Shown: positions 2,779 through 12,688 of the stretch, piece after piece
Layout of the letters: each line of letters begins with the position of its first letter
How positions within the stretch are numbered: the stretch's first letter is position 1
Source of the DNA: Plantactinospora endophytica
GTDB taxonomy: Bacteria; Actinomycetota; Actinomycetes; Mycobacteriales; Micromonosporaceae
DNA length: 64,000 nt
Reading direction: 5' to 3'
Assembly (NCBI RefSeq): GCF_016862915.1
Contig: NZ_BONW01000037.1
Location: 1-64,000, forward strand
Program-made: the position numbers and the translations under genes
Notes under the pieces: generated by a model
What the model saw: only the letters and a program-made list of their open reading frames with translations
What the model was told of the DNA's origin: nothing
The model's database searches: none

Positions 2779-3684
2779 TCATGATCCGGGAGACAGCACC
2801 TGGCTGCGCAGCGGGCGGGGCTCGACGACCTGGAACCTGATCGGCTTTCCCGGGGCGGCCTGGGCGACCAGCGGCAGGTCGGCGGGGTGCAGCACGCCGA
2901 TCACCGGATAACCGCCCATGGTCGGATGGTCGGCCAGGAAGATCACCGGTGTTCCGGCGGCCGGCACCTGCACCGCACCGAGTACCACGCCCTCGCTGCG
3001 CAGTTCTCCGCCGATCCGCCGGGGCAGCGCCGGCCCCTCCAGGCGTACGCCGATCCGGTTGCTCAGGGTGGAGACCCGGTAGCTCTCCCGGTCGAGGATG
3101 CGTACCGCGTCGTCGGTGAACCAGTCGGCCCGGGGACCGAGCAGCACCCGCAGGGTCACCTCCTCGGCCAGTGTGCCGGTCGGGGCGACGTCGACCGGGG
3201 CGGGCGGCCCGAGCACCTCGCCCAGCGGCAGTCGGTCACCGACGGCGAGCGGTGCCGGGCCGAGCCCGGAGAGCAGGTCGGTGGAGCGGCTGCCGAGTAC
3301 CGCCGGAACCGCGATGCCGCCGGAGAAGGCAAGGTAGCTGCGCAGTCCTCGCCGGGCGGTGGCCACGTCGACCCGCGCGCCGGCCGGTACCGAGACCGGC
3401 GCCGACCAGCTCGCCGGCCGGCCGTCCACGGTGACCGGGGCCCAGGCGCCGGTAACCGCGACGGTGCCGGCCCGGCCGAGCCGGACCGACACGCCGGTGA
3501 CGGTGGTCTCGATCGTCGCCGCCCCGGGCGGGTTGCCGACCAGCCGGTTCGCCAGCCGGTGCGCCGGCAGGTCGAGCGCGCCGGAGCGAGGCACTCCGAG
3601 ATGCGCGTGCCCGGGCCGGCCGAGGTCCTGCACGGTGCTGAGCACGCCGGACCGGAGCACCTCGACGCAGCGTTCCCCGGTCAT
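2779..3684 (-). CDS. pxpC: 5-oxoprolinase subunit C (biotin-dependent carboxyltransferase-like, KipA type)
   Basis: 301 residues matching the AHS2/KipA family: VLRSGVLSTVQDLGRPGHAHLGVPRSGALD near the N-terminus is typical (seen in pieces around residues 9-38), with ANRLVGNPPGAATIE after it and the C-terminal FLADHPTMGGYPVIG. PxpC works with PxpA and PxpB in ATP-dependent cleavage of 5-oxo-L-proline to L-glutamate. Its start overlaps the stop of pxpB by 4 bp (ATGA type), so the two are probably translationally coupled. It is the last of the recognisable pathway genes in a leftward run that starts at pxpA. Confidence 0.92.
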   Translation of the reverse strand: MTGERCVEVLRSGVLSTVQDLGRPGHAHLGVPRSGALDLPAHRLANRLVGNPPGAATIETTVTGVSVRLGRAGTVAVTGAWAPVTVDGRPASWSAPVSVPAGARVDVATARRGLRSYLAFSGGIAVPAVLGSRSTDLLSGLGPAPLAVGDRLPLGEVLGPPAPVDVAPTGTLAEEVTLRVLLGPRADWFTDDAVRILDRESYRVSTLSNRIGVRLEGPALPRRIGGELRSEGVVLGAVQVPAAGTPVIFLADHPTMGGYPVIGVLHPADLPLVAQAAPGKPIRFQVVEPRPLRSQVLSPGS

Positions 3685-4460
3685 CCGGCGACATCCCGGC
3701 GGTCGACATCCCGAACGTCGACATCCTGGCGGTCGGCGTCCCGACGGCCGACATCCCGAACGTCGGCGTCCCGGCGGTCGACATCCCGGACGTCGACATT
3801 CTCGGCGTCGAGGTTGGCGTCGACGTTCCGGAACCGGACCCGGGTGCCCGGGGTGAGCAGGGCGACCGGGTCCCGGTCCGGGTCGAAGAGCACCAGGTCG
3901 GTGCTGCCGAGCAGTTGCCAGCCGCCGGGCGAGTCCCGGGGGTAGATTCCGGCGTAGCCGCCGGCCAGCGCGACCGAGCCGGCCGGCACCCGGGTCCGGG
4001 GCACGGCCCGCCGGGGCAGGTGGTAGCGCTCCGGCAGCCCGGTCAGGTAGCCGAAGCCGGGGGCGAAGCCGCAGAACGCGACCCGGTACTCGGGTGCGCC
4101 GTGTATCCGCCCGACCTCCTCCTCGGCGACGTCCCAGAGCCGGGCCACCTCGGCCAGGTCGGCGCCGTCGTACCGGACCGGCACCTCGACCAGCGGACCG
4201 TCCGGCGGCCGGGCCGCACCCGGCTGCCAGCCGGCGAGCCGACCGGCGAGTTCCGCCGGATCGTCCAGGCCGTCGACCAGCACGGTGAGTTCACCGGGTA
4301 CGACCTCCTCGACGCCGACCAGTTCGCCCCGGTCCCGCCAGCCGTGCAGTTGTGCCACCAGCGCGGCGGTGTGCGCCGGCTCGGTCACCTCGACCAGCAG
4401 CGCACGCAGCCCCACCGGAATGATCCGCACCGTCGCACACTCCCCGTCGTACCCGCTCAC
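3681..4460 (-). CDS. pxpB: 5-oxoprolinase subunit B (KipI/AHS1 type) with repetitive C-terminal tail
   Basis: About 210 residues match the AHS1/KipI family, including the signature FCGFAPGFGYLTGLP (about 131-145), then PAGSVALAGGYAGIYPRDSPGGW and LLGSTDL (each seen within about residues 160-195). The product is the B subunit of bacterial 5-oxoprolinase. The family normally stops soon after the TPGTRVRF strand. Here about 45 more residues follow, built from charged five-residue units such as DVRDV and DRRDA and encoded by 15-bp DNA repeats. The tail runs to the overlap with pxpC. Whether it is functional or a tolerated repeat expansion is unknown. Confidence 0.92.
   Translation of the reverse strand: MSGYDGECATVRIIPVGLRALLVEVTEPAHTAALVAQLHGWRDRGELVGVEEVVPGELTVLVDGLDDPAELAGRLAGWQPGAARPPDGPLVEVPVRYDGADLAEVARLWDVAEEEVGRIHGAPEYRVAFCGFAPGFGYLTGLPERYHLPRRAVPRTRVPAGSVALAGGYAGIYPRDSPGGWQLLGSTDLVLFDPDRDPVALLTPGTRVRFRNVDANLDAENVDVRDVDRRDADVRDVGRRDADRQDVDVRDVDRRDVAG
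3690..3809. repeat. 15-bp tandem repeat encoding the PxpB tail
   Basis: Eight 15-bp units run from 3690 to 3809, alternating forms of gacatcccgaacgtc and ggcgtcccggcggtc. Because 15 is a multiple of three, copy number can change without breaking the frame. The last copies abut the pxpB stop and pxpC start. Confidence 0.9.
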
Positions 4461-4476
4461 AGCCCGAGGTATCCGC

Positions 4477-5178
4477 TCACAGCCCGAGGTACGAGCGGCG
4501 TACCTCGTCGGAGGCGGCCAGTTCGTCGGCCGGTCCGGACATCACCACCTCGCCGGTCTGCAGCACGTACGCCCGGTCGGCCAGCTCCAGCGCGGCCCGC
4601 AGGTTCTGCTCGACCAGCAGCATGGTGGTGCCGGCGCGGCGGATCTCGGCCAGCACCTCGAAGATCATCTTGGTGAACTTCGGTGAGATGCCGAGCGAGG
4701 GCTCGTCGAGCATCAGCAGTTTCGGCCGGCTCATCAGCGCCCGGCCGAGCGCCACCATCTGCTGCTCCCCGCCGGAGAGCGTGCCGGCGCGCTGGCCGGA
4801 GCGCTCGGCGAGGATCGGGAAGAGGTCGTAGACCCGGGTCAGGTCCGCCTCCCGTTCGGCAGCGGTGCGATGGTAGCCGCCGAGCAGCAGGTTCTGCACC
4901 ACGGTCTGGTGGCCGAACAGTCGCCGCCCCTCCGGCACCAGCACCGCGCCCCGGCGCGCGATCCGGTACGCCGGCAGCCCGCTCACGTCCTCGTCGAGGA
5001 AGGTCACCGCACCGCGTACCGGCCGGTGCAGGCCGGAGACCGCCGCCAGCAGAGTGCTCTTGCCGGCACCGTTCGCGCCGACCAGCGCCACCAGCTCGCC
5101 GGCCTCGACCCGCAGGTCGACACCGCGCAGCGCGACGACTCCGGCGTAGTCCACGTGGAGATCCCGCACGGTCAGCAT
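4477..5178 (-). CDS. livF: HAAT-family ABC transporter ATPase, LivF type
   Basis: 233 residues with Walker A GANGAGKST near residue 33, the signature LSGGEQQM near 133 and Walker B LLMLDEPSLG near 154, all complete. The short form and order mark the LivF member of a branched-chain amino-acid type importer. It directly follows livG (start 5178, livG stop 5179) and precedes pxpB by 16 bp, so importer and 5-oxoprolinase are one transcription unit. The transported compound is therefore more likely 5-oxoproline or a small peptide than a branched-chain amino acid; this is inference from context. Confidence 0.88.
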   Translation of the reverse strand: MLTVRDLHVDYAGVVALRGVDLRVEAGELVALVGANGAGKSTLLAAVSGLHRPVRGAVTFLDEDVSGLPAYRIARRGAVLVPEGRRLFGHQTVVQNLLLGGYHRTAAEREADLTRVYDLFPILAERSGQRAGTLSGGEQQMVALGRALMSRPKLLMLDEPSLGISPKFTKMIFEVLAEIRRAGTTMLLVEQNLRAALELADRAYVLQTGEVVMSGPADELAASDEVRRSYLGL

Positions 5179-5901
5179 CTACAGCGCCTTCCCCAGGTAC
5201 GCCTCGACCACCGTCGGGTCGTGCGCGACCTGCTCCGGCGTACCCTCGCTGATCTTCTGCCCGTAGTGCAGCACCACCACCCGGTGGCAGAGCGGCATGA
5301 TGACCTCCATTACGTGTTCCACCATCAGGATGGTGACGCCGCCCCGGTTGATGGTGCGGACGATCTCCACCGCCTCCCGGGCCTCGGTCGGGGTCAGCCC
5401 GGAGAGCACCTCGTCGAGCAGCAGCAGCTTCGGTTCGGTGGCCAGCGCCCGCCCCATCTCCAGGCGCTTCTTCCATGCGGCGGTGAGCGACGCGGCCGGC
5501 GAGTCGAGCACCGGGCCGAGCCCGGCCAGCTCGGCGACCTCGTCGGCCCGTCGCCGGGCGTCCCGCAACCGACTGTGCCGGCCGAACGCCGCCGTGGTGA
5601 GGTTCTCCCGCACGGTCATCGAGCCGAACACCCGCATGAGCTGGAAGGTGCGGCCGACGCCGGCCCGGGCCGCCCGGTGCGGCGCCCAGCCGGTGACGTC
5701 CCGGCCGTCGAACTCCAGCCGGCCCGAGGTGGGTCGCTGCGCGCCGGCCACCATCGAGAAGAGGGTGCTCTTGCCGGCGCCGTTCGGCCCGATCAGCCCG
5801 ACGATCGCCCCCGGTTCCACCTCGAAGCTGACGTCCCGGTTGGCCCAGAGGCCGCCGAACCGGCAGGAGAGGTTGTCGATCCTCAGCAGTGCCCCGGTCA
5901 T
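5179..5901 (-). CDS. livG: HAAT-family ABC transporter ATPase, LivG type
   Basis: Walker A is [12 protein letters not shown] and Walker B is LLLLDEVLSGL. The signature segment reads LTAAWKKRLEMGRAL instead of LSGGQ. A divergent signature of this kind occurs in one branch of LivG proteins (from memory), so activity is not in doubt on this ground alone. I start at ATG 5901, preceded by GAGGTGGAG; an in-frame codon 42 bp upstream has no such site. The gene abuts livF with no spacing. Product: the second ATPase of the importer, on the cytoplasmic face. Confidence 0.87.
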   Translation of the reverse strand: MTGALLRIDNLSCRFGGLWANRDVSFEVEPGAIVGLIGPNGAGKSTLFSMVAGAQRPTSGRLEFDGRDVTGWAPHRAARAGVGRTFQLMRVFGSMTVRENLTTAAFGRHSRLRDARRRADEVAELAGLGPVLDSPAASLTAAWKKRLEMGRALATEPKLLLLDEVLSGLTPTEAREAVEIVRTINRGGVTILMVEHVMEVIMPLCHRVVVLHYGQKISEGTPEQVAHDPTVVEAYLGKAL

Positions 5902-5968
5902 CGCTCCACCTCGTCGGACCTCTCGACGCCGTGACCCGGCCACCCGCCGTTGTTCCCGTTCCGCCTGG

Positions 5969-7054
5969 TCACGGCTTCACCTCAGCAGATCCGGCCGGCT
6001 CCGGAGCGGCTTTCCCGCCGCGTCCACCGCCCAGCCGGCGGGCGACCGGTGCCCAGAGCCGCTGCCCGATGGCGAGCAGGCCGCCCGGCTCGGTGATCGA
6101 GACGAGCACGATCAGCGCGCCGTAGAGCAGCAGGTCGACCGACCGCCCGCTGCCGGAGAACTCCTGCCGGGTGACGTCCTGGACGAAGACCAGCACCCAG
6201 GCGCCGAGCAGCGGCCCCCAGAACCGGCCGACCCCGCCGAGTACCGCCATCAGGGTGAACGACACCGACAGGTCCAGGCCGAGTCCGGAGGGTGGGTCGA
6301 CGAAGAGCACGTACATCACGTAGTAGCCGCCGGCCAGTGCGGTGACCGCGCCGGAGAGCGCCGCCGCCGCGAGCTTGTACCGGTGCACGTCGATCCCGAC
6401 CGCCGCAGCCGCCTCCTGGTCGTCCCGGATGGCCCGTACGTAGTTGCCGGCCCGGCCGCGCAGGAAGAGCCAGACCGCCAGCGCGGCGAGGCAGAAGAAA
6501 CCGAGCGCCACGTAGTAGTACGGCCGCTTGTCCAGCAGCGAGAACTGGAGGTTGGCCAGCGACTGCTCGACCACCGGCAGTTCCCAGCCGTTCGCCTGGC
6601 CGAGTCCGGGCAGGTTGGTGACCAGGATGAAGACGATCTCGGCGACCGCGATGGTGGCGATCGAGTAGTAGTGGTGCCGCAGCCGGAAGCAGGGCCAGCC
6701 GACGGCGGCGGCCAGCAGCGCGGCCAGCGGCAGCGACAGCGCGATGGCCAGCCACGGCGACCAGCCCTGCCGGACCAGCGCCGCGGTGGTGTAGGCGCCG
6801 GTGCCGAAGTACAGCGCGTGTCCGAAGGAGACCTGTCCGGCGTAGCCGCCGAGCAGGTTCCAGCCGGTGGCCGCGATGCCGAAGGTCAGCGCCAGGATGC
6901 CGATGTTGTGTGCCGCCGAGTCCGCGAAGACCAGCGGGTACGCCGCCAGCGCCGCCAGGATCAGCGCGGCGGTACCCCAGGACGGCAGCCGTCGACCCGT
7001 CGGGCCGGACAGCCGGGCCGGTGACGGCCGGCGCAGTACGGTCGGGGCGCTCAT
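5969..7054 (-). CDS. livM: HAAT-family ABC transporter permease, LivM type
   Basis: 361 residues, about ten hydrophobic segments. The motifs are those of LivM: FGIAATGWNLLGGYAGQVSF (about residues 79-98), and RAIRDDQEAAAAVGIDVHRYK in the cytoplasmic loop that docks the ATPase. The N-terminal 30 residues are basic and probably cytoplasmic. A GAGGTGGG site precedes the ATG. The charged C-terminus ends in AEVKP. It lies 22 bp after livH and pairs with it in the membrane channel. Confidence 0.9.
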   Translation of the reverse strand: MSAPTVLRRPSPARLSGPTGRRLPSWGTAALILAALAAYPLVFADSAAHNIGILALTFGIAATGWNLLGGYAGQVSFGHALYFGTGAYTTAALVRQGWSPWLAIALSLPLAALLAAAVGWPCFRLRHHYYSIATIAVAEIVFILVTNLPGLGQANGWELPVVEQSLANLQFSLLDKRPYYYVALGFFCLAALAVWLFLRGRAGNYVRAIRDDQEAAAAVGIDVHRYKLAAAALSGAVTALAGGYYVMYVLFVDPPSGLGLDLSVSFTLMAVLGGVGRFWGPLLGAWVLVFVQDVTRQEFSGSGRSVDLLLYGALIVLVSITEPGGLLAIGQRLWAPVARRLGGGRGGKAAPEPAGSAEVKP

Positions 7055-7076
7055 CGTCCCACCTCGATAGCTCTGC

Positions 7077-7937
7077 TCATCGCGTCCCCAGCAGTCCCTG
7101 TGGCCGCACCAGGACGACCACCAGATAGAGGGCCAGTGCGGCGGCCAGGGTGTAGCTCGGGGCGTACAGGCCGACGACGCCCTGGGCGACGCCGACCAGC
7201 AGACCGGCCAGGGCCGCCCCGGTGATGCTGCCGAAGCCGCCGAAGGCGACCACCACGAAGGCCATCAGCACGAAGCTCACCCCGGCGGTCGGCGACGCGG
7301 AGTAGGAGTTCATCAGCAGTGCTCCGGCGACGCCGGTGGCCAGTCCGGCGATCACCCAGCAGAGCGCGTACATCTTCCGGGGGTCGATGCCCATCAGCGA
7401 GGCCGCCGCCGGGTCCTCCCCGGCGGCCCGCACCGCACCGCCGAGCCGGGTCCGGTTCATGAAGTACGCCACCGCGCCGGTGGCGAGCAGCGCGCCGACG
7501 GCCATGATGACCTGCGGTCCGCCGATCACCACCGGGCCGATCTCCCAGCGCAGCCCGGCGGCCCAGGGTCGGGGCACGGTCCGGGTGTTCGGCGTCCAGA
7601 GGAACTGGGCCAGCCCGCGCAGGAACACCTGCAACCCGAAGGTGACGATCACCTGGGCCAGCGGTGACTTGCCGAGTACCCGGCCGACCGCGCCGAAGTA
7701 CATCAGCGCGCCGGTGAGTGCGATCGACACCCCGGCGAGCGGGATGGAGAGCAGCGGGTCGAGGCCGAGCAACGACCAGGCGAAGAACGAGGTGTACATG
7801 CCGAGCATGACCATCTCGCCGTGCGCGAAGTTGACCACGTCCATCACGCCGTAGATGAGGGTCAGCCCGACCGCGACCAGCGCGAAGACCGCGCCGATCA
7901 GCAGTCCGTTGACCACCGACTGGAGCAGGTCGGTCAT
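7077..7937 (-). CDS. livH: HAAT-family ABC transporter permease, LivH type
   Basis: 286 residues with eight predicted membrane spans. LivH features are clear: SVVNGLLIGAVFALVAVGLT at the start, YGVMDVVNFAHGEMVMLG (about 29-46), RAAGEDPAAASLMGIDPRK in the EAA-like loop and the glycine-rich GAALAGLLVGVAQG near the end. A GGGAGGTC site lies upstream of the ATG. The binding-protein gene ends 37 bp before it. Confidence 0.9.
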   Translation of the reverse strand: MTDLLQSVVNGLLIGAVFALVAVGLTLIYGVMDVVNFAHGEMVMLGMYTSFFAWSLLGLDPLLSIPLAGVSIALTGALMYFGAVGRVLGKSPLAQVIVTFGLQVFLRGLAQFLWTPNTRTVPRPWAAGLRWEIGPVVIGGPQVIMAVGALLATGAVAYFMNRTRLGGAVRAAGEDPAAASLMGIDPRKMYALCWVIAGLATGVAGALLMNSYSASPTAGVSFVLMAFVVVAFGGFGSITGAALAGLLVGVAQGVVGLYAPSYTLAAALALYLVVVLVRPQGLLGTR

Positions 7938-7974
7938 GGTGCCGACCTCCCGGGGTGTCCGTCGCCGCGCCGGC

Positions 7975-9240
7975 TCACTGCTGCGCCTTGTTCATCGGCC
8001 AGATCGGCTGCACGGAGGAGAGTTCGGCCGGGAAGACCACCCGGTACTTCCCCTCGATCATCTGCTCGACCACGCCGGCCGCGCCCGTGTTCTGGCCCTT
8101 GTCGTCGAACTTGATCCCGGTCCAAGGCATGATCGTCTTCTCCCCGGGGATGTCGAGGGCGCGCAGCGCGTCCCGGATCTTCGCCGGCTCGACCGACTTC
8201 GCGGTGTCGATCGCCTGCGCCAGCGCGAGTACGGCGGTGAAGGCCCGGGCCGAGTTCTCGGTCATCGGGGCGCCGTACCGCTGCTGGAACAGGTCCGCCA
8301 CGGTCTTGGCCGCCGGCCGCTTCTCGGCGATCTCGCCGGACCAGGCCGCCCGGGTGGAGGCGCCGTTGGCGAGCGGGCCGAGCCCGGTGGCGAACGCCGG
8401 GTCGGCGAACCCGGTCCCGTAGGCGAGCAGGGCCGGCGGGTGGTACTTCAACTGGTCCAGCGTCTTCATCAGCTTGATCGCCGCGTCGGTGTACGCGAGC
8501 ACGAAGAGTACGTCGGGGTTCTTGCCCCGCACCTGTGCCACCTGCGAGCCGAGGTCGGCGGCGGTCGGGTCGAACGCGACGTTCACCGTGACCGGCAGGC
8601 CGGCCTCGGCGGCGACCTTCTCGGTCACCCCGGCACCGTCGTTGCCGAACTGGTCGTTGCTGTGGAAGATGCCGACCGTACGGATCTGGTCGCCGCCGGC
8701 CTGCCGGGCCTTCAGGTAGTCGAACATCGACCGGGCGAACGTCTCGTCGGTCGGCCCGGTCCGGAAGAACCACTTCAGGCCCCGCTCGGTGAGCGCCACC
8801 GACGAGGACGCCTCGTTGACGAACGGTACGCCGAGCCGCTCGGCGCGCTGGCTGGCCGTCAACGTCACCCCGGACTGGTACGAGCCGACCACGGCGGCGA
8901 CCTTCTCGCCGGTGACCAGCCGGTCGACCTCGCCCGCGCCGACCTCGGGCTTGCCCTGGGTGTCGCCGGTGATCAGCTTGATCGGTGCGCCGCCCAGTCC
9001 GGGCAGCCCCTTGCCCGGCCCGAGTGGCAGGTCGAGTCCGGGATGGTCGTTGTTGACGATGTCCACCGCCAGTTCGGCACCGTGCAGCACGTCGGTGCCC
9101 TGGGTGGCGTTCGGCCCGCTGAGCGGCCACAGTCCGGCGAGCTTGACCTCGTCGGTCGTACCGGCGCCGTCGGATCCTCCGCAGCCGGCGAGCCCGGCGG
9201 CGAGGACGAGAGCGGCCGTGATGCTGGTGAGCTTGCGCAT
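7975..9240 (-). CDS. HAAT-family substrate-binding lipoprotein, LivK type
   Basis: 421 residues. The N-terminus MRKLTSITAALVLAAGLAGC is a lipoprotein signal with the lipidated Cys at 20, so the protein is anchored outside the membrane. The body is a type I periplasmic-binding fold: IKLITGDTQGKPEVGAGEVD (about 94-113), AAVVGSYQSGVTL, RTVGIFHSNDQFG and VLFVLAYTDAAIKLMK are standard LivK strands. Pocket residues cannot be assigned to a ligand from sequence. Gene context points to 5-oxoproline or pyroglutamyl peptides. A repeat-filled gap of 267 bp separates it from the secreted peptidase-like gene upstream. Confidence 0.88.
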   Translation of the reverse strand: MRKLTSITAALVLAAGLAGCGGSDGAGTTDEVKLAGLWPLSGPNATQGTDVLHGAELAVDIVNNDHPGLDLPLGPGKGLPGLGGAPIKLITGDTQGKPEVGAGEVDRLVTGEKVAAVVGSYQSGVTLTASQRAERLGVPFVNEASSSVALTERGLKWFFRTGPTDETFARSMFDYLKARQAGGDQIRTVGIFHSNDQFGNDGAGVTEKVAAEAGLPVTVNVAFDPTAADLGSQVAQVRGKNPDVLFVLAYTDAAIKLMKTLDQLKYHPPALLAYGTGFADPAFATGLGPLANGASTRAAWSGEIAEKRPAAKTVADLFQQRYGAPMTENSARAFTAVLALAQAIDTAKSVEPAKIRDALRALDIPGEKTIMPWTGIKFDDKGQNTGAAGVVEQMIEGKYRVVFPAELSSVQPIWPMNKAQQ

Positions 9241-9320
9241 GGTCAGCCCTTTCTACGGCGGAAGAGGATGGCGAAGGACCCGGCGGCGCGGACGCGGCGG
9301 CGGACGGGCGCTTCGGAACG

Positions 9321-9435
9321 GGTGGGCCGGCCGGACCCGGGGTTGACGGGTGGGCCGGCCAGGGCCCGGGGCTAACAGGTGGGCCGGCCAGGCCCGGGGT
9401 TGACGAGTGGACCGGCCAGCACCGGGGGTTGCCGG
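9321..9435. repeat. 28-29-bp tandem repeat upstream of the binding-protein gene
   Basis: Four units (9321-9348, 9349-9377, 9378-9406, 9407-9435) share ggtgggccggcca followed by cccggggttgac. They fill most of the 267-bp gap between the peptidase-like gene and the binding-protein gene. The sequence is extremely GC-rich and could slow polymerase or form hairpins; no gene is seen in it. Confidence 0.85.
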
Positions 9436-9507
9436 CACCCCGGGCCCGCCGGCCGCTCGGGTGGCGGCCGACCCGGGGGTTGCCGGTCCCCCGGGTCGGC
9501 CGGGGAC

Positions 9508-10866
9508 TCAGGAGACGGCCGCGCCGGCCGCCTTCACCAGGGCGACGGTCTGCTCGATCGTCTGCGCGCGGTCGGCGGCGAACGGCGGGTCGATGACGTC
9601 CAGCGGGTTCTGCGGGTAGACCAGCGAGGAGATGTGCAGGTGTCCGCCGGGTACGTCGGTCGCACCGAGGGCCAGCCGGAGCCGGTTCGACCGGTACATG
9701 CTCTCGTTGGAGAGGTAGTTGCCGCCGCCGCCGGCCTGCGCCTGGGCGTCCGGGGAGGGGCCGTTGTCGTGGCAGGAGACCTTGGTCGGGTCCGGCCGGG
9801 TGTTGCCGGTCCACTCGCAGAGCCGCGGGTTGAGCGCGGTCGGCCAGGGCGTCGTCCCGGCGGCGACCATCTGCTGGTACGGCAACGTGGTCTCGATGAA
9901 CTCGGGATTGGTCGCCGGCTGCGGCCAGTTGGTCACCGGCGGGACGAGTTCGGCGGTGCCCTCGTTGTTGTTGTCCGGGCTGCCGCCGCGCCAGGCGCCG
10001 GCCCACTGCTCGATCGCCATCCGGGCCCGCCCGCCCTGGCTGATCGTCATGATCAGGTCGGCGCGCTCCCGGCTGTTCCGGGTCAGGTGCGGGCCGAACG
10101 CGTCCTCGACGTAGCCGAGGTCGAAGCCGCTCCAGGTCACCGGCAGCGAGACCGCCTGGATCTGCACCAGCTTGTCGCCGACCCGGTACTCCTGCCCGTC
10201 CAGTTGAAGGGCGGACGCGCCGGACGGGTTCGACCGGCGGATCTCCCCGTTGAGCTGGTACGGGTCGAAGCCGCTGACCAGCACCCGGGTCACCGAGCGG
10301 CTGGTGGAGAAGTCGGTCGAGGAGATGCCCCGGGAGGCGTACTCGTAGGTCTTCAGCAGGGCTGCCCGGACGCTGTCGGTGACCCGGAACCGGGGCGTCC
10401 ACTGGCGCAGGTCACGGGTGCCGGTCAGCCGCGACCAGTAGAGCGGGCGGTCGTCGTACCGTTCGATGCTGCCCATCCAGCGCTTGCCCTGGGCCCGCTC
10501 GACGGCCGTACGCCACAGCTCGGCGCCACGGGACTGGAGCAGCTTGTCGGCCTCCTTGACCGACCGTACGCCGCACAGCTCGGCGGTGAGCCGGGTGACG
10601 AACGGGGTGAAGCCGCCGACCTCGATCAGCGTGCTCGGCACCTGCACCCCGCCGGGCTGGGCGGGGGTGTCGATCCGGGTCTCCTCGTAGGTGGACGGGA
10701 GGGTGCGGTCGTAGCACTCCCCCGCCGGTCCGGACTGCCCGGCCGGCTGCGCTCCGGCGGTGCCCGGCATCAGCAGCAGGGCTGCGCCGATGCCGGTGGC
10801 GGTGAGCAGCTTCAGCCGGCCGCGTACACTCTCGGTCAACTTCTGCACATCCAAGGTGATCTTCAC
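9508..10866 (-). CDS. secreted pyroglutamyl-peptidase-I-like protein (peptidase C15 fold), Cys-to-Ser variant
   Basis: About 452 residues. A signal peptide (LKLLTATGIGAALLLMPGTAGA) precedes a 140-residue N-terminal region I do not recognise. The C-terminal 260 residues follow the C15 order: VLVSGFDPYQLNGE with NPSG, LPVTW, ISQGGRARMAIEQWA with the family Glu (about residue 286), PDNNNEG, TTLPYQQMV, GGNYLSNESMYR, and GGHLHISSL with the family His (about 411). In cytosolic PCP-I the segment reads YxCN and holds the nucleophilic Cys; here it is YLSN, Ser at about 386. It would release N-terminal pyroglutamate outside the cell, if active. Start uncertain: GTG 10866, or TTG 10854 with a better AAGGTGA site. 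Confidence 0.82.
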   Translation of the reverse strand: MKITLDVQKLTESVRGRLKLLTATGIGAALLLMPGTAGAQPAGQSGPAGECYDRTLPSTYEETRIDTPAQPGGVQVPSTLIEVGGFTPFVTRLTAELCGVRSVKEADKLLQSRGAELWRTAVERAQGKRWMGSIERYDDRPLYWSRLTGTRDLRQWTPRFRVTDSVRAALLKTYEYASRGISSTDFSTSRSVTRVLVSGFDPYQLNGEIRRSNPSGASALQLDGQEYRVGDKLVQIQAVSLPVTWSGFDLGYVEDAFGPHLTRNSRERADLIMTISQGGRARMAIEQWAGAWRGGSPDNNNEGTAELVPPVTNWPQPATNPEFIETTLPYQQMVAAGTTPWPTALNPRLCEWTGNTRPDPTKVSCHDNGPSPDAQAQAGGGGNYLSNESMYRSNRLRLALGATDVPGGHLHISSLVYPQNPLDVIDPPFAADRAQTIEQTVALVKAAGAAVS

Positions 10867-10991
10867 CTTTCCTCGATAGCCGCGCCGGTTCCGCGTTTCC
10901 AGGGCCAACCGGGGAACGGAGCCGGCGCTTGCGTGGGGGTTTGCGGCGGGCCGCCCGTGGCATCGGGCGGCTGCCGGACAGGTGCGGGAGC

Positions 10992-11033
10992 CGGTGACCG
11001 TCGGTCGGGTGGCAGCCCGGCCGACGGTCACCG
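10992..11033. terminator. strong hairpin between pxpA and the peptidase-like gene
   Basis: Perfect 13-bp arms CGGTGACCGTCGG (10992-11004) and CCGACGGTCACCG (11021-11033) extend inward through a T-G step to CGGG/CCCG around a six-base loop. No T-tract follows on the minus strand. It could partly terminate or process the transcript after pxpA, leaving higher pxpA levels than the downstream genes. Confidence 0.55.
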
Positions 11034-11070
11034 ATCCAGCGGTCGTGCTGCTGGGTGGTGCCGGGACAGC

Positions 11071-11832
11071 TCAGACGAACGAGGCGAGGCTGATGCCGGC
11101 CTCCTGCAACGCGGTGCGGACCTGGCGGGCCAGGTCGACCGCGCCGGGGGTGTCGCCGTGCACGCAGATCGACCGGGCCCGGACCGCCACCGGGGCGCCG
11201 TCGACGGCCGCCACCTGTCCGGTGGTGGCCATCTTCACGCAGCGCCGGGCGACCGCCTCCGGATCGGTGACCAGTGCACCGGGGCTGCCCCGCTTCGCCA
11301 GGCTGCCGTCGGCCTGGTAACCCCGGTCGGCGAACGCCTCCCGAACGGTCTTCAGGCCCACCTCGGCCGCTTGCCGGAGCAGTTGCGAGCCGGGCAGCCC
11401 GAGGATCGGCAGGCTCGGGTCGTACGCGGAGACCGCCGTGACCACGGCGGCGGCCTGCGCCTGGTCGGTGACGGTGCGGTTGTAGAGCGCGCCGTGCGGT
11501 TTGACGTACCGCACCCGGCCGCCCTCGCTGCGGGCGATCCCGTCCAGCGCGGCGAGTTGGTAGAGCACGTCGTCGGAGAGCCGGTCGGGCTCCATGTCGA
11601 TGGCCCGCCGACCGAAGCCGGCCAGGTCCCGGTAGCCGACGTGGGCACCGATGGAGACGTCCCGGCTGATCGCCTCGGCGCAGACCCGGCGCATGATGGT
11701 CGGGTCACCACCGTGGAACCCGCAGGCGACGTTCGCGCTGGTCACGACGGAGAGCAGGGCCATGTCGTCGCCAAGCTGCCAGACCCCGAAACCTTCGCCG
11801 AGATCACTGTTCAGATCGAGGATGACCGACAT
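11071..11832 (-). CDS. pxpA: 5-oxoprolinase subunit A (LamB/YcsF family)
   Basis: 253 residues beginning ILDLNSDLGEGFG, the hallmark of the LamB/YcsF family. SANVACGFHGGDP (about 32-44), VGAHVGYRDLAGFGRR-like residues (about 61-76), VKPHGALYN and the C-terminal ICVHGDTPGA follow, with the conserved His and Asp residues of this TIM-barrel-like hydrolase. PxpA with PxpB and PxpC opens the lactam ring of 5-oxoproline using ATP. ATG 11832 sits behind AGGAGGTGCG; an upstream in-frame codon at 11898 would add residues lacking homology. It is the promoter-proximal gene of the leftward operon, separated by 130 bp from the divergent regulator. Confidence 0.93.
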   Translation of the reverse strand: MSVILDLNSDLGEGFGVWQLGDDMALLSVVTSANVACGFHGGDPTIMRRVCAEAISRDVSIGAHVGYRDLAGFGRRAIDMEPDRLSDDVLYQLAALDGIARSEGGRVRYVKPHGALYNRTVTDQAQAAAVVTAVSAYDPSLPILGLPGSQLLRQAAEVGLKTVREAFADRGYQADGSLAKRGSPGALVTDPEAVARRCVKMATTGQVAAVDGAPVAVRARSICVHGDTPGAVDLARQVRTALQEAGISLASFV

Positions 11833-11880
11833 CGCACCTCCTGTGGCTGTGGTGAACGCCGTGGGTTCAGGTTGGCAGAC

Positions 11881-11911
11881 TGTTGAACAATCCGTCAATG
11901 GTCATGTTGAC
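11881..11911. promoter_or_regulatory. palindromic operator candidates between pxpA and the GntR gene
   Basis: Two inverted repeats lie in the divergent gap: TGTTGAACA (11881-11889) and GTCAA, 8 bp, TTGAC (11894-11911). FadR-type GntR proteins often bind short palindromes in their own divergent promoters. No convincing -10/-35 pair was found on either strand. Confidence 0.45.
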
Positions 11912-11962
11912 TTGTAACCTCGTCGTAGCATGGACCCTTCTCTCGATTGTGGGCCCGACGGC

Positions 11963-12688
11963 ATGAAGGACAATGACCCCGTGACGTGGCTGGCGAAGCT
12001 GCAGGACGACCGTTCGTTGATCAGTCGGGCGAGCACCGCGCAGCGGGTGGCGGAGATACTTCGGGCCCGGATCACCGAGGGTGCGCTGCTGCCGGGTACC
12101 CGGCTCTCCGAGGAGATGATCGGCGCGGCGCTCGGCGTCTCCCGCAACACCCTCCGGGAGTCGTTCCGGCTGCTGATGCACGAGCGACTCGTGGTGCACG
12201 AACTCAACCGGGGCGTCTTCGTCCGGGTGCTCGACGTACAGGACGTCGTCGACATCTACCGGCTCCGCCGGGTGCTGGAGTGCGCGGCCGTCCGCAACGC
12301 GGGAAACAGTCCGGCCGGGGCGACGGAGGCGATCGAGGCCGCGCTGGTCGAGGGCGAGCAGGCCGCCGCACAGCAGCGGTGGTTCGACGTGGGTACCGCC
12401 AACATGCAGTTCCACCAGGCCATCGCGGGCCTGACCGGCAGCCCTCGGATCGAGGAGATCATGCGGCAGGCGCTGGCCGAGATCCGGCTCGCCTTCCACG
12501 TGATGGCCGCACCGCAGACCTTCCACCAGCCGTACCTGGACCGGCACCGCGAGCTGCTGGAGCTGATCCGGAGCGGCGAGGTCGAGCGGGCGCACACGGT
12601 ACTCGACGACTACCTGCGGACTGCGGAGCGGCAACTCGTCGACGCGTACGCCGAGCGGGTGCCGGAGGGCGCGGCCGTACCCCGTTGA
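11963..12688 (+). CDS. GntR-family regulator, FadR/FCD subfamily
   Basis: About 241 residues. The winged helix is AQRVAEILRARITEGALLPG with LSEEMIGAALGVSRNTLRES (recognition helix about residues 48-60). The all-alpha FCD ligand domain follows, with its usual Asp/Arg/His residues (DIYRLRRVLE, FHQAIAGLTG, RHRELLELIRSGE). It is divergent from pxpA and so probably controls the oxoproline operon, with 5-oxoproline or a related acid as a candidate effector. Possible starts are ATG 11930, ATG 11963 and GTG 11981; the last has AAGGA 10 bases upstream. Family call is certain, target inferred. Confidence 0.9.
   Translation: MKDNDPVTWLAKLQDDRSLISRASTAQRVAEILRARITEGALLPGTRLSEEMIGAALGVSRNTLRESFRLLMHERLVVHELNRGVFVRVLDVQDVVDIYRLRRVLECAAVRNAGNSPAGATEAIEAALVEGEQAAAQQRWFDVGTANMQFHQAIAGLTGSPRIEEIMRQALAEIRLAFHVMAAPQTFHQPYLDRHRELLELIRSGEVERAHTVLDDYLRTAERQLVDAYAERVPEGAAVPR

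Follow-up and report, generated by a model that had tools for sequence, protein, structure and literature searches.

The pxpABC genes, which encode the subunits of 5-oxoprolinase, are found in the Bacillus subtilis cluster of the ycsF-ycsG-ycsI-kip type, a cluster without a HAAT importer. Clan CF, to which peptidase family C15 (pyroglutamyl peptidase I, PCP-I) belongs, is described as a one-family cysteine clan, and the C15 catalytic triad is Glu-Cys-His (PMC12445089). In Corynebacterium glutamicum the pxpTABC genes are repressed through agattgttcaacaatct by PxpR, a divergently encoded GntR protein that binds 5-oxoproline with a KD of 726 nM (PMC13274462). Here we analysed a 64-kb window, the whole stretch of DNA under study, from the 9.68-Mb genome of the soil actinobacterium Plantactinospora endophytica, in which pxpABC occur together with a secreted C15-fold gene, a HAAT importer and a divergent GntR-type gene. 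We consider it likely that these genes form a regulon-level system for using extracellular pyroglutamate (5-oxoproline), with secreted release, import, ring opening and PxpR-type control, and such a system would supply what the recently described bacterial pathway has lacked outside the cell, namely an enzyme for release and an importer of its own.

A proposed locus for release, import and ring opening

From 12688 down to 2779, gntR on the plus strand is followed by a leftward run of pxpA, the C15-fold gene, the gene of a substrate-binding protein, livH, livM, livG, livF, pxpB and pxpC. Every gene named in the original prediction is an open frame at the coordinates given there, and Pfam and NCBIfam matches bear out the arrangement it described. 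The importer cluster is complete, with one binding protein (PF13458) and two genes each matching PF02653 and PF00005, and pxpA is the sole match in the whole genome. The locus resembles that of C. glutamicum in its pxpABC, its divergent GntR-type gene and a near-identical operator (15 of 17 bases), whereas the importer there is PxpT, a secondary carrier of Nramp-like type, and the available portion of that report mentions no secreted C15-fold gene (PMC13274462).

In the mechanism that we propose, the secreted C15-fold protein would release pyroglutamate from the N-termini of peptides or proteins outside the cell, probably using Ser387 as nucleophile together with His412 and Glu287. The lipoprotein would bind free L-pyroglutamate, to judge from its relative 8wch, and the HAAT permeases and ATPases would import it. 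PxpABC would then open the ring to give glutamate at the cost of ATP, as is established for this family, while the FCD-type GntR protein, given the operator match, would bind the palindrome at 11877-11893 and release it when 5-oxoproline accumulates. A pathway of release, import and ring opening had been foreseen in the original prediction and is supported overall, but free pyroglutamate is more likely to be the cargo than peptides.

The binding protein and its ligand

By a wide margin, the nearest solved relative of the binding protein is 8wch, the HAAT-type SAR11 binding protein SAR11_0655, which was crystallised with co-purified L-pyroglutamate and no branched-chain amino acid. The N-terminus of the binding protein is lipoprotein-like, and Cys20 is invariant in 25 aligned rows. 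By analogy with 8wch, this lipoprotein is a probable L-pyroglutamate receptor, and the imported compound is likely to be free pyroglutamate rather than peptides, which points to a possible ligand for a HAAT system that would be annotated as branched-chain amino acid transport. As an aside, comparison with Atu2422 places Thr276 where we take the amine-binding Asp to sit. An open-literature search, judged from its listings, turned up no HAAT system with 5-oxoproline.

The same evidence bears on another explanation, in which PxpABC would be a housekeeping operon for 5-oxoproline repair that merely has a common branched-chain amino acid importer and a secreted protein unrelated to it as neighbours. 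The importer genes do score best against Liv- or urea-type NCBIfam models, one congener (G006) carries gntR|pxpABC only, and B. subtilis without PxpABC accumulates endogenous 5-oxoproline and grows worse (PMC13274462). However, the nearest solved relative of the binding protein holds L-pyroglutamate, and the genes of the binding protein, the C15-like protein and pxp recur in rearranged form, with three operator-like sites, in the distant actinomycete G469, so that we regard this explanation as very improbable.

A serine in place of the catalytic cysteine

When the frame 9508-11031 was scored against the Pfam C15 model (PF01470), it gave an E value of 0.0043 and 17.5 bits, under the cut-off of 22.7; the PF01470 label is precomputed on some relatives, such as P0044. 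The predicted model, with a predicted local distance difference test (pLDDT) score of 87.1, has an N-terminal helical domain of about 135 residues, and residues ~188-453 of the 453 in the query adopt the PCP-I fold. The C15 fold of the original prediction was recovered in this model, but the catalytic Cys of the family was not. A profile alignment included six canonical C15 sequences, of which two are near-identical, and is shallow (effective sequence numbers, Neff, of 1.7 and 2.3). In it the canonical GTFVCN falls on GNYLSN, so Ser387 occupies the nucleophile position. Glu287 and His412 align with the invariant Glu and His of canonical C15, which we take to be the catalytic residues.

We aligned 325 proteins, namely 240 database hits and 85 of 93 proteins derived from genomic loci (those shorter than 700 residues), with redundancy kept. 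The nucleophile Cys was replaced by Ser in all 325, with Glu and His retained: Ser387, Asn388, Glu389, Glu287, His410, His412, Phe201 and Asn214 were invariant, position 204 was Phe or Tyr, Gln278 was kept in 323 and Ser390 in 193. The Phe, Asn and Gln residues presumably have a role in pyroglutamate recognition. Ser, Glu and His were likewise present in all 93 locus-derived proteins. A first hand alignment had placed a catalytic Cys at residue 394, where most rows have Ser or Ala, implying a dead enzyme; it was dropped, as the profile alignment gives the invariant Ser387. Ser390 was ruled out as the nucleophile, being Ile or Val in 132 of the 325 rows.

The secreted protein thus has in common with family C15 the fold, the positions of Glu and His and the Asn after the nucleophile, and differs in having Ser for Cys, in being secreted, in its additional N-terminal helical domain and in its score under the Pfam cut-off. 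In a crude count, 234 of the 240 hits had a hydrophobic N-terminal segment, versus none of the six canonical sequences, which are a weak control because they were cut at the domain. The family comprises 4209 proteins at E<=0.001 among 7997 scored, and for many of them pyroglutamyl peptidase is the database name, a label that is no substitute for an assay. No canonical C15 peptidase was found in the P. endophytica genome at E<=0.001, PDB sequence searches with the C15-like protein gave no real match, and open-literature searches, as judged from listings, turned up neither a serine-type C15 enzyme nor C15 together with pxp genes.

On these alignments, the secreted protein is most likely a serine-type pyroglutamyl peptidase. 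For the family as a whole (precomputed label PF27118) we lean, with some reserve, towards the same activity: it would be a large secreted Cys-to-Ser branch of clan CF that begins pyroglutamate catabolism outside the cell, controlled by PxpR-type regulators in several Actinomycetota and adjoining pxp in some Bacillota. A serine-type branch also exists among the SERA proteins, and its activity is reportedly disputed. This branch, in Plasmodium, is a natural precedent (PMC3058004). For a large secreted family in which all members aligned lack the catalytic Cys, the locus points to a function that can be tested, and a family-wide change of nucleophile from Cys to Ser in a natural enzyme family is directly testable, since a simple fluorogenic assay exists. 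In one relative (P0100; L220 4897-7329) the C15-like protein continues at its C-terminal end into a fused DUF2891 domain (PF11199).

A cassette within the pxp operon

The gene order was the same in five of the six congeners mapped (G001-G005). The sixth, G006, has gntR|pxpA-pxpB-pxpC followed by the same glyoxalase-fold gene that lies downstream of pxpC in our window, with no C15-like or HAAT genes at the locus, while Micromonospora pisi (G016) has the block C15-like-SBP-livHMGF (SBP being the substrate-binding protein) alone, at 81-95% identity, and pxpABC elsewhere in its genome. Because one genome thus has the bare operon and the other the block alone, the C15-like and HAAT genes behave as a cassette. 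It sits in a gntR|pxpABC operon, with pxpA on one side and pxpB on the other, and would supply both the release enzyme and the importer. Seven of the relatives mapped carry livH, at 86-99% identity. In G005 (L151 7525-8875), about 1.35 kb of additional DNA lies between livM and livH, possibly an insertion.

When seven candidates were scored per genome, the binding protein was found at E<=1e-100 in 7 of 250 Micromonosporaceae genomes, each time adjoining a C15-like gene; these are not seven independent events, since six of the genomes belong to one genus. A class-wide draw of 394 genomes, with four candidates scored in each, returned two genomes, that of P. endophytica and that of G469 (7.2 Mb), an actinomycete from a different family. 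G469 has all ten genes together, beginning with pxpB-pxpA, continuing with C15-like and gntR, both on the opposite strand, and ending in SBP-livHMGF-pxpC, and the first 70 residues of its binding protein are shared with that of Jiangella mangrovi. The co-occurrence is more than chance, because the order is kept in five of six congeners and the full set is rearranged in another family. A conserved neighbourhood had been proposed as a check of the original prediction, and it was found in these genomes as well as in 32 of the 80 C15-like loci described below. The full ten-gene set was seen only in Plantactinospora and G469. Divergent GntR control of pxp has already been published (PMC13274462).

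C15-like genes near pxp genes in other bacteria

We sampled the best 80 of at least 592 C15-like loci, which carry 42 genus or metagenome-assembled genome (MAG) labels. A pxp gene was present within the 10-kb flank in 32 of them, pxpA in 29 of these, and the 15 labels concerned include Fictibacillus and Pseudogracilibacillus (Bacillota), Lentzea, Kribbella, Kineococcus, Streptoalloteichus and Blastococcus. Outside Plantactinospora, pxpA was near the C15-like gene in 27 of 78 loci, as against 1, 0, 0, 0 and 0 of 78 for control genes from the same window. On a FastTree phylogeny of 92 C15-like proteins (36 pxp-linked; some rows have long branches), linkage required 12 changes, at least 11 of them forced by supported branches, compared with 28.8 when labels were shuffled, which indicates that pxp linkage is inherited within clades, but not within a single one.

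An Nramp-type gene occupies the place of PxpT, with the C15-like gene on one side and pxpA on the other, in Kribbella, Pseudokineococcus, Kineococcus vitellinus and Streptoalloteichus. Such a PxpT-like gene instead of HAAT was present in 11 of the 32 pxp-linked loci within the stretch examined, and HAAT stands at its place in Plantactinospora and G469. In the Fictibacillus loci, pxp genes occur with an Nramp-type gene as well as a C15-like gene, and L033 has a D-glutamate cyclase gene in addition. The Actinoplanes-type C15-like loci that were mapped (L020-L028, L055, L221-L223) have no pxp genes, and those of them that were scored have no upstream PxpR-like site of at least 8 bits. Actinoplanes sp. 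TFC3 (L024 and L055, on one contig) has two near-identical C15-like genes that face opposite ways and are separated by about 22 kb.

Regulator and predicted operator

The gap between pxpA and gntR contains the 17-bp site ggattgttcaacagtct (11877-11893). Its centre is about 53 bp ahead of pxpA, and it agrees in 15 of 17 bases with the proven C. glutamicum PxpR operator (PMC13274462). When its 15-bp core was searched with up to two mismatches on both strands of the 9.68-Mb genome, it occurred in one place; the reversed control pattern gave 0 matches forward and 1 reverse. The locus has a GntR-type gene divergent from pxp with a PxpR-like palindrome between them, the arrangement of a PxpR-type system, and we infer that the FCD-type GntR protein is a PxpR-type repressor.

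Sites of this kind also occur in other genomes. With up to one mismatch allowed, the palindrome was present in two places in G055 (4.5 Mb; reversed control, 0). One adjoins gntR in the pxp cluster and is 1.4 kb away from pxpA, with one gene between, and the other lies 79-221 bp before a C15-like gene on another contig. In G469, exact matches to a degenerate form of the palindrome were found at two places, before the C15-like gene and between gntR and the binding protein gene, and one mismatch gave ten places, including one before pxpB, with 4 for the reversed control, so that a PxpR-like site precedes each of the three transcription units. A PxpR-like palindrome at G028:C19:52244 lies away from the pxp and C15-like genes obtained from that genome.

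These sites are relevant to a second alternative, in which import and ring opening proceed as proposed but the secreted C15-fold protein is no peptidase, and instead binds pyroglutamyl ends or hydrolyses another lactam or ester. The absence of the defining C15 Cys from all 325 aligned proteins and the Pfam score below the cut-off would fit this, as would the 48 of 80 loci that are not near pxp. We nevertheless find it unlikely, given that Ser, Glu, His and the Asn that follows the nucleophile are all invariant in the same 325 proteins, which is not expected of a mere binder, and that PxpR-like sites precede the unlinked copies in G055 and M. pisi.

Several observations weigh against a pyroglutamate-releasing regulon, and we set them out together. 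A Cys-to-Ser change at the catalytic nucleophile often kills a cysteine peptidase, and the register of Ser387 comes from one profile alignment and a motif common to both groups, G-x-Y/F-x-[SC]-N, no residue pairs having been given by the fold tools. The L-pyroglutamate in 8wch is a co-purified ligand, and the genome searches for the binding protein scored just seven or four candidates per genome. The 80 loci lean to close relatives because they are the best of at least 592, and 48 of them have no pxp gene in the flank, though in some cases this may reflect length, because some contigs are short. An upstream site of at least 8 bits was present in 4 of 51 C15-like loci with neither pxp nor gntR near, and such a site lies directly before the C15-like gene in 5 of 36 pxp-linked loci, the remaining ones having it at best at gntR|pxpA. 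All 11 Bacillota loci in this upstream test scored 5.9 bits or less, the C15-like gene of G028 has no site, and the M. pisi cassette has an upstream site, yet no PxpR homologue was found there at E<=1e-20.

Gene calls and features of the locus

Features are listed in Table 1. The broad model TIGR00724 was passed by the pxpC product, which scored 212.3 bits with the narrow PxpC model NF045499 (cut-off 500). The start of pxpA is most likely the ATG at 11832, behind AGGAGGTG, rather than the TTG at 11898. For the C15-like gene, a start in the interval from 10866 to 10839 is more probable than one at 11031; its closest relative, P0001, begins at the position corresponding to 10839.

Table 1. Genes and predicted operator of the pyroglutamate locus, in window coordinates.
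Feature	Position	Strand	Evidence
pxpC, 5-oxoprolinase subunit (CT_A_B)	2779..3684	-	PF02626 E 1.7e-86; TIGR00724 272.9 bits, cut-off 230.2
pxpB, 5-oxoprolinase subunit (CT_C_D), repetitive C-terminal tail	3681..4460	-	TIGR00370 148 bits, cut-off 145.55
HAAT ATPase, LivF type	4477..5178	-	PF00005; best NCBIfam model LivF, below its cut-off
HAAT ATPase, LivG type	5179..5943	-	PF00005 and PF12399
HAAT permease, LivM type	5969..7054	-	PF02653 (BPD_transp_2)
HAAT permease, LivH type	7077..7937	-	PF02653 (BPD_transp_2)
Substrate-binding lipoprotein, probable L-pyroglutamate receptor	7975..9240	-	PF13458 (Peripla_BP_6); nearest solved structure 8wch
Secreted C15-fold protein with N-terminal helical domain, probable serine-type pyroglutamyl peptidase	9508..10866	-	Ser387-His412-Glu287 (453-residue query numbering)
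pxpA, 5-oxoprolinase subunit	11071..11832	-	PF03746 (LamB_YcsF) E 7.3e-101; NF003814 363.4 bits, cut-off 226
PxpR-like predicted operator GGATTGTTCAACAGTCT	11877..11893	-	15/17 identity to proven C. glutamicum PxpR site
pxpR-like FCD-type GntR regulator, divergent	11930..12688	+	PF00392 and PF07729; homologues flank same palindrome in relatives

The intergenic gaps are about 200 bp between pxpA and the C15-like gene and 267 bp between the latter and the binding protein gene. A simple scan, which is weak evidence, found no terminator-like sites on the operon strand, and the run from pxpA to pxpC could form one transcript. Four GC-rich repeat copies of about 29 bp each (9318-9435) occupy part of the 267-bp gap. 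At the 3′ end of pxpB, a 15-bp tandem repeat (3689-3811) encodes a repetitive acidic/basic tail (DVRDVDRRDAD...), and congener matches to pxpB mostly end before this tail, that of G004 running nearly to the end. The glyoxalase-fold gene at 2257-2742 lies downstream of pxpC in all six congeners mapped, including the cassette-less G006, and is possibly a further member of the operon.

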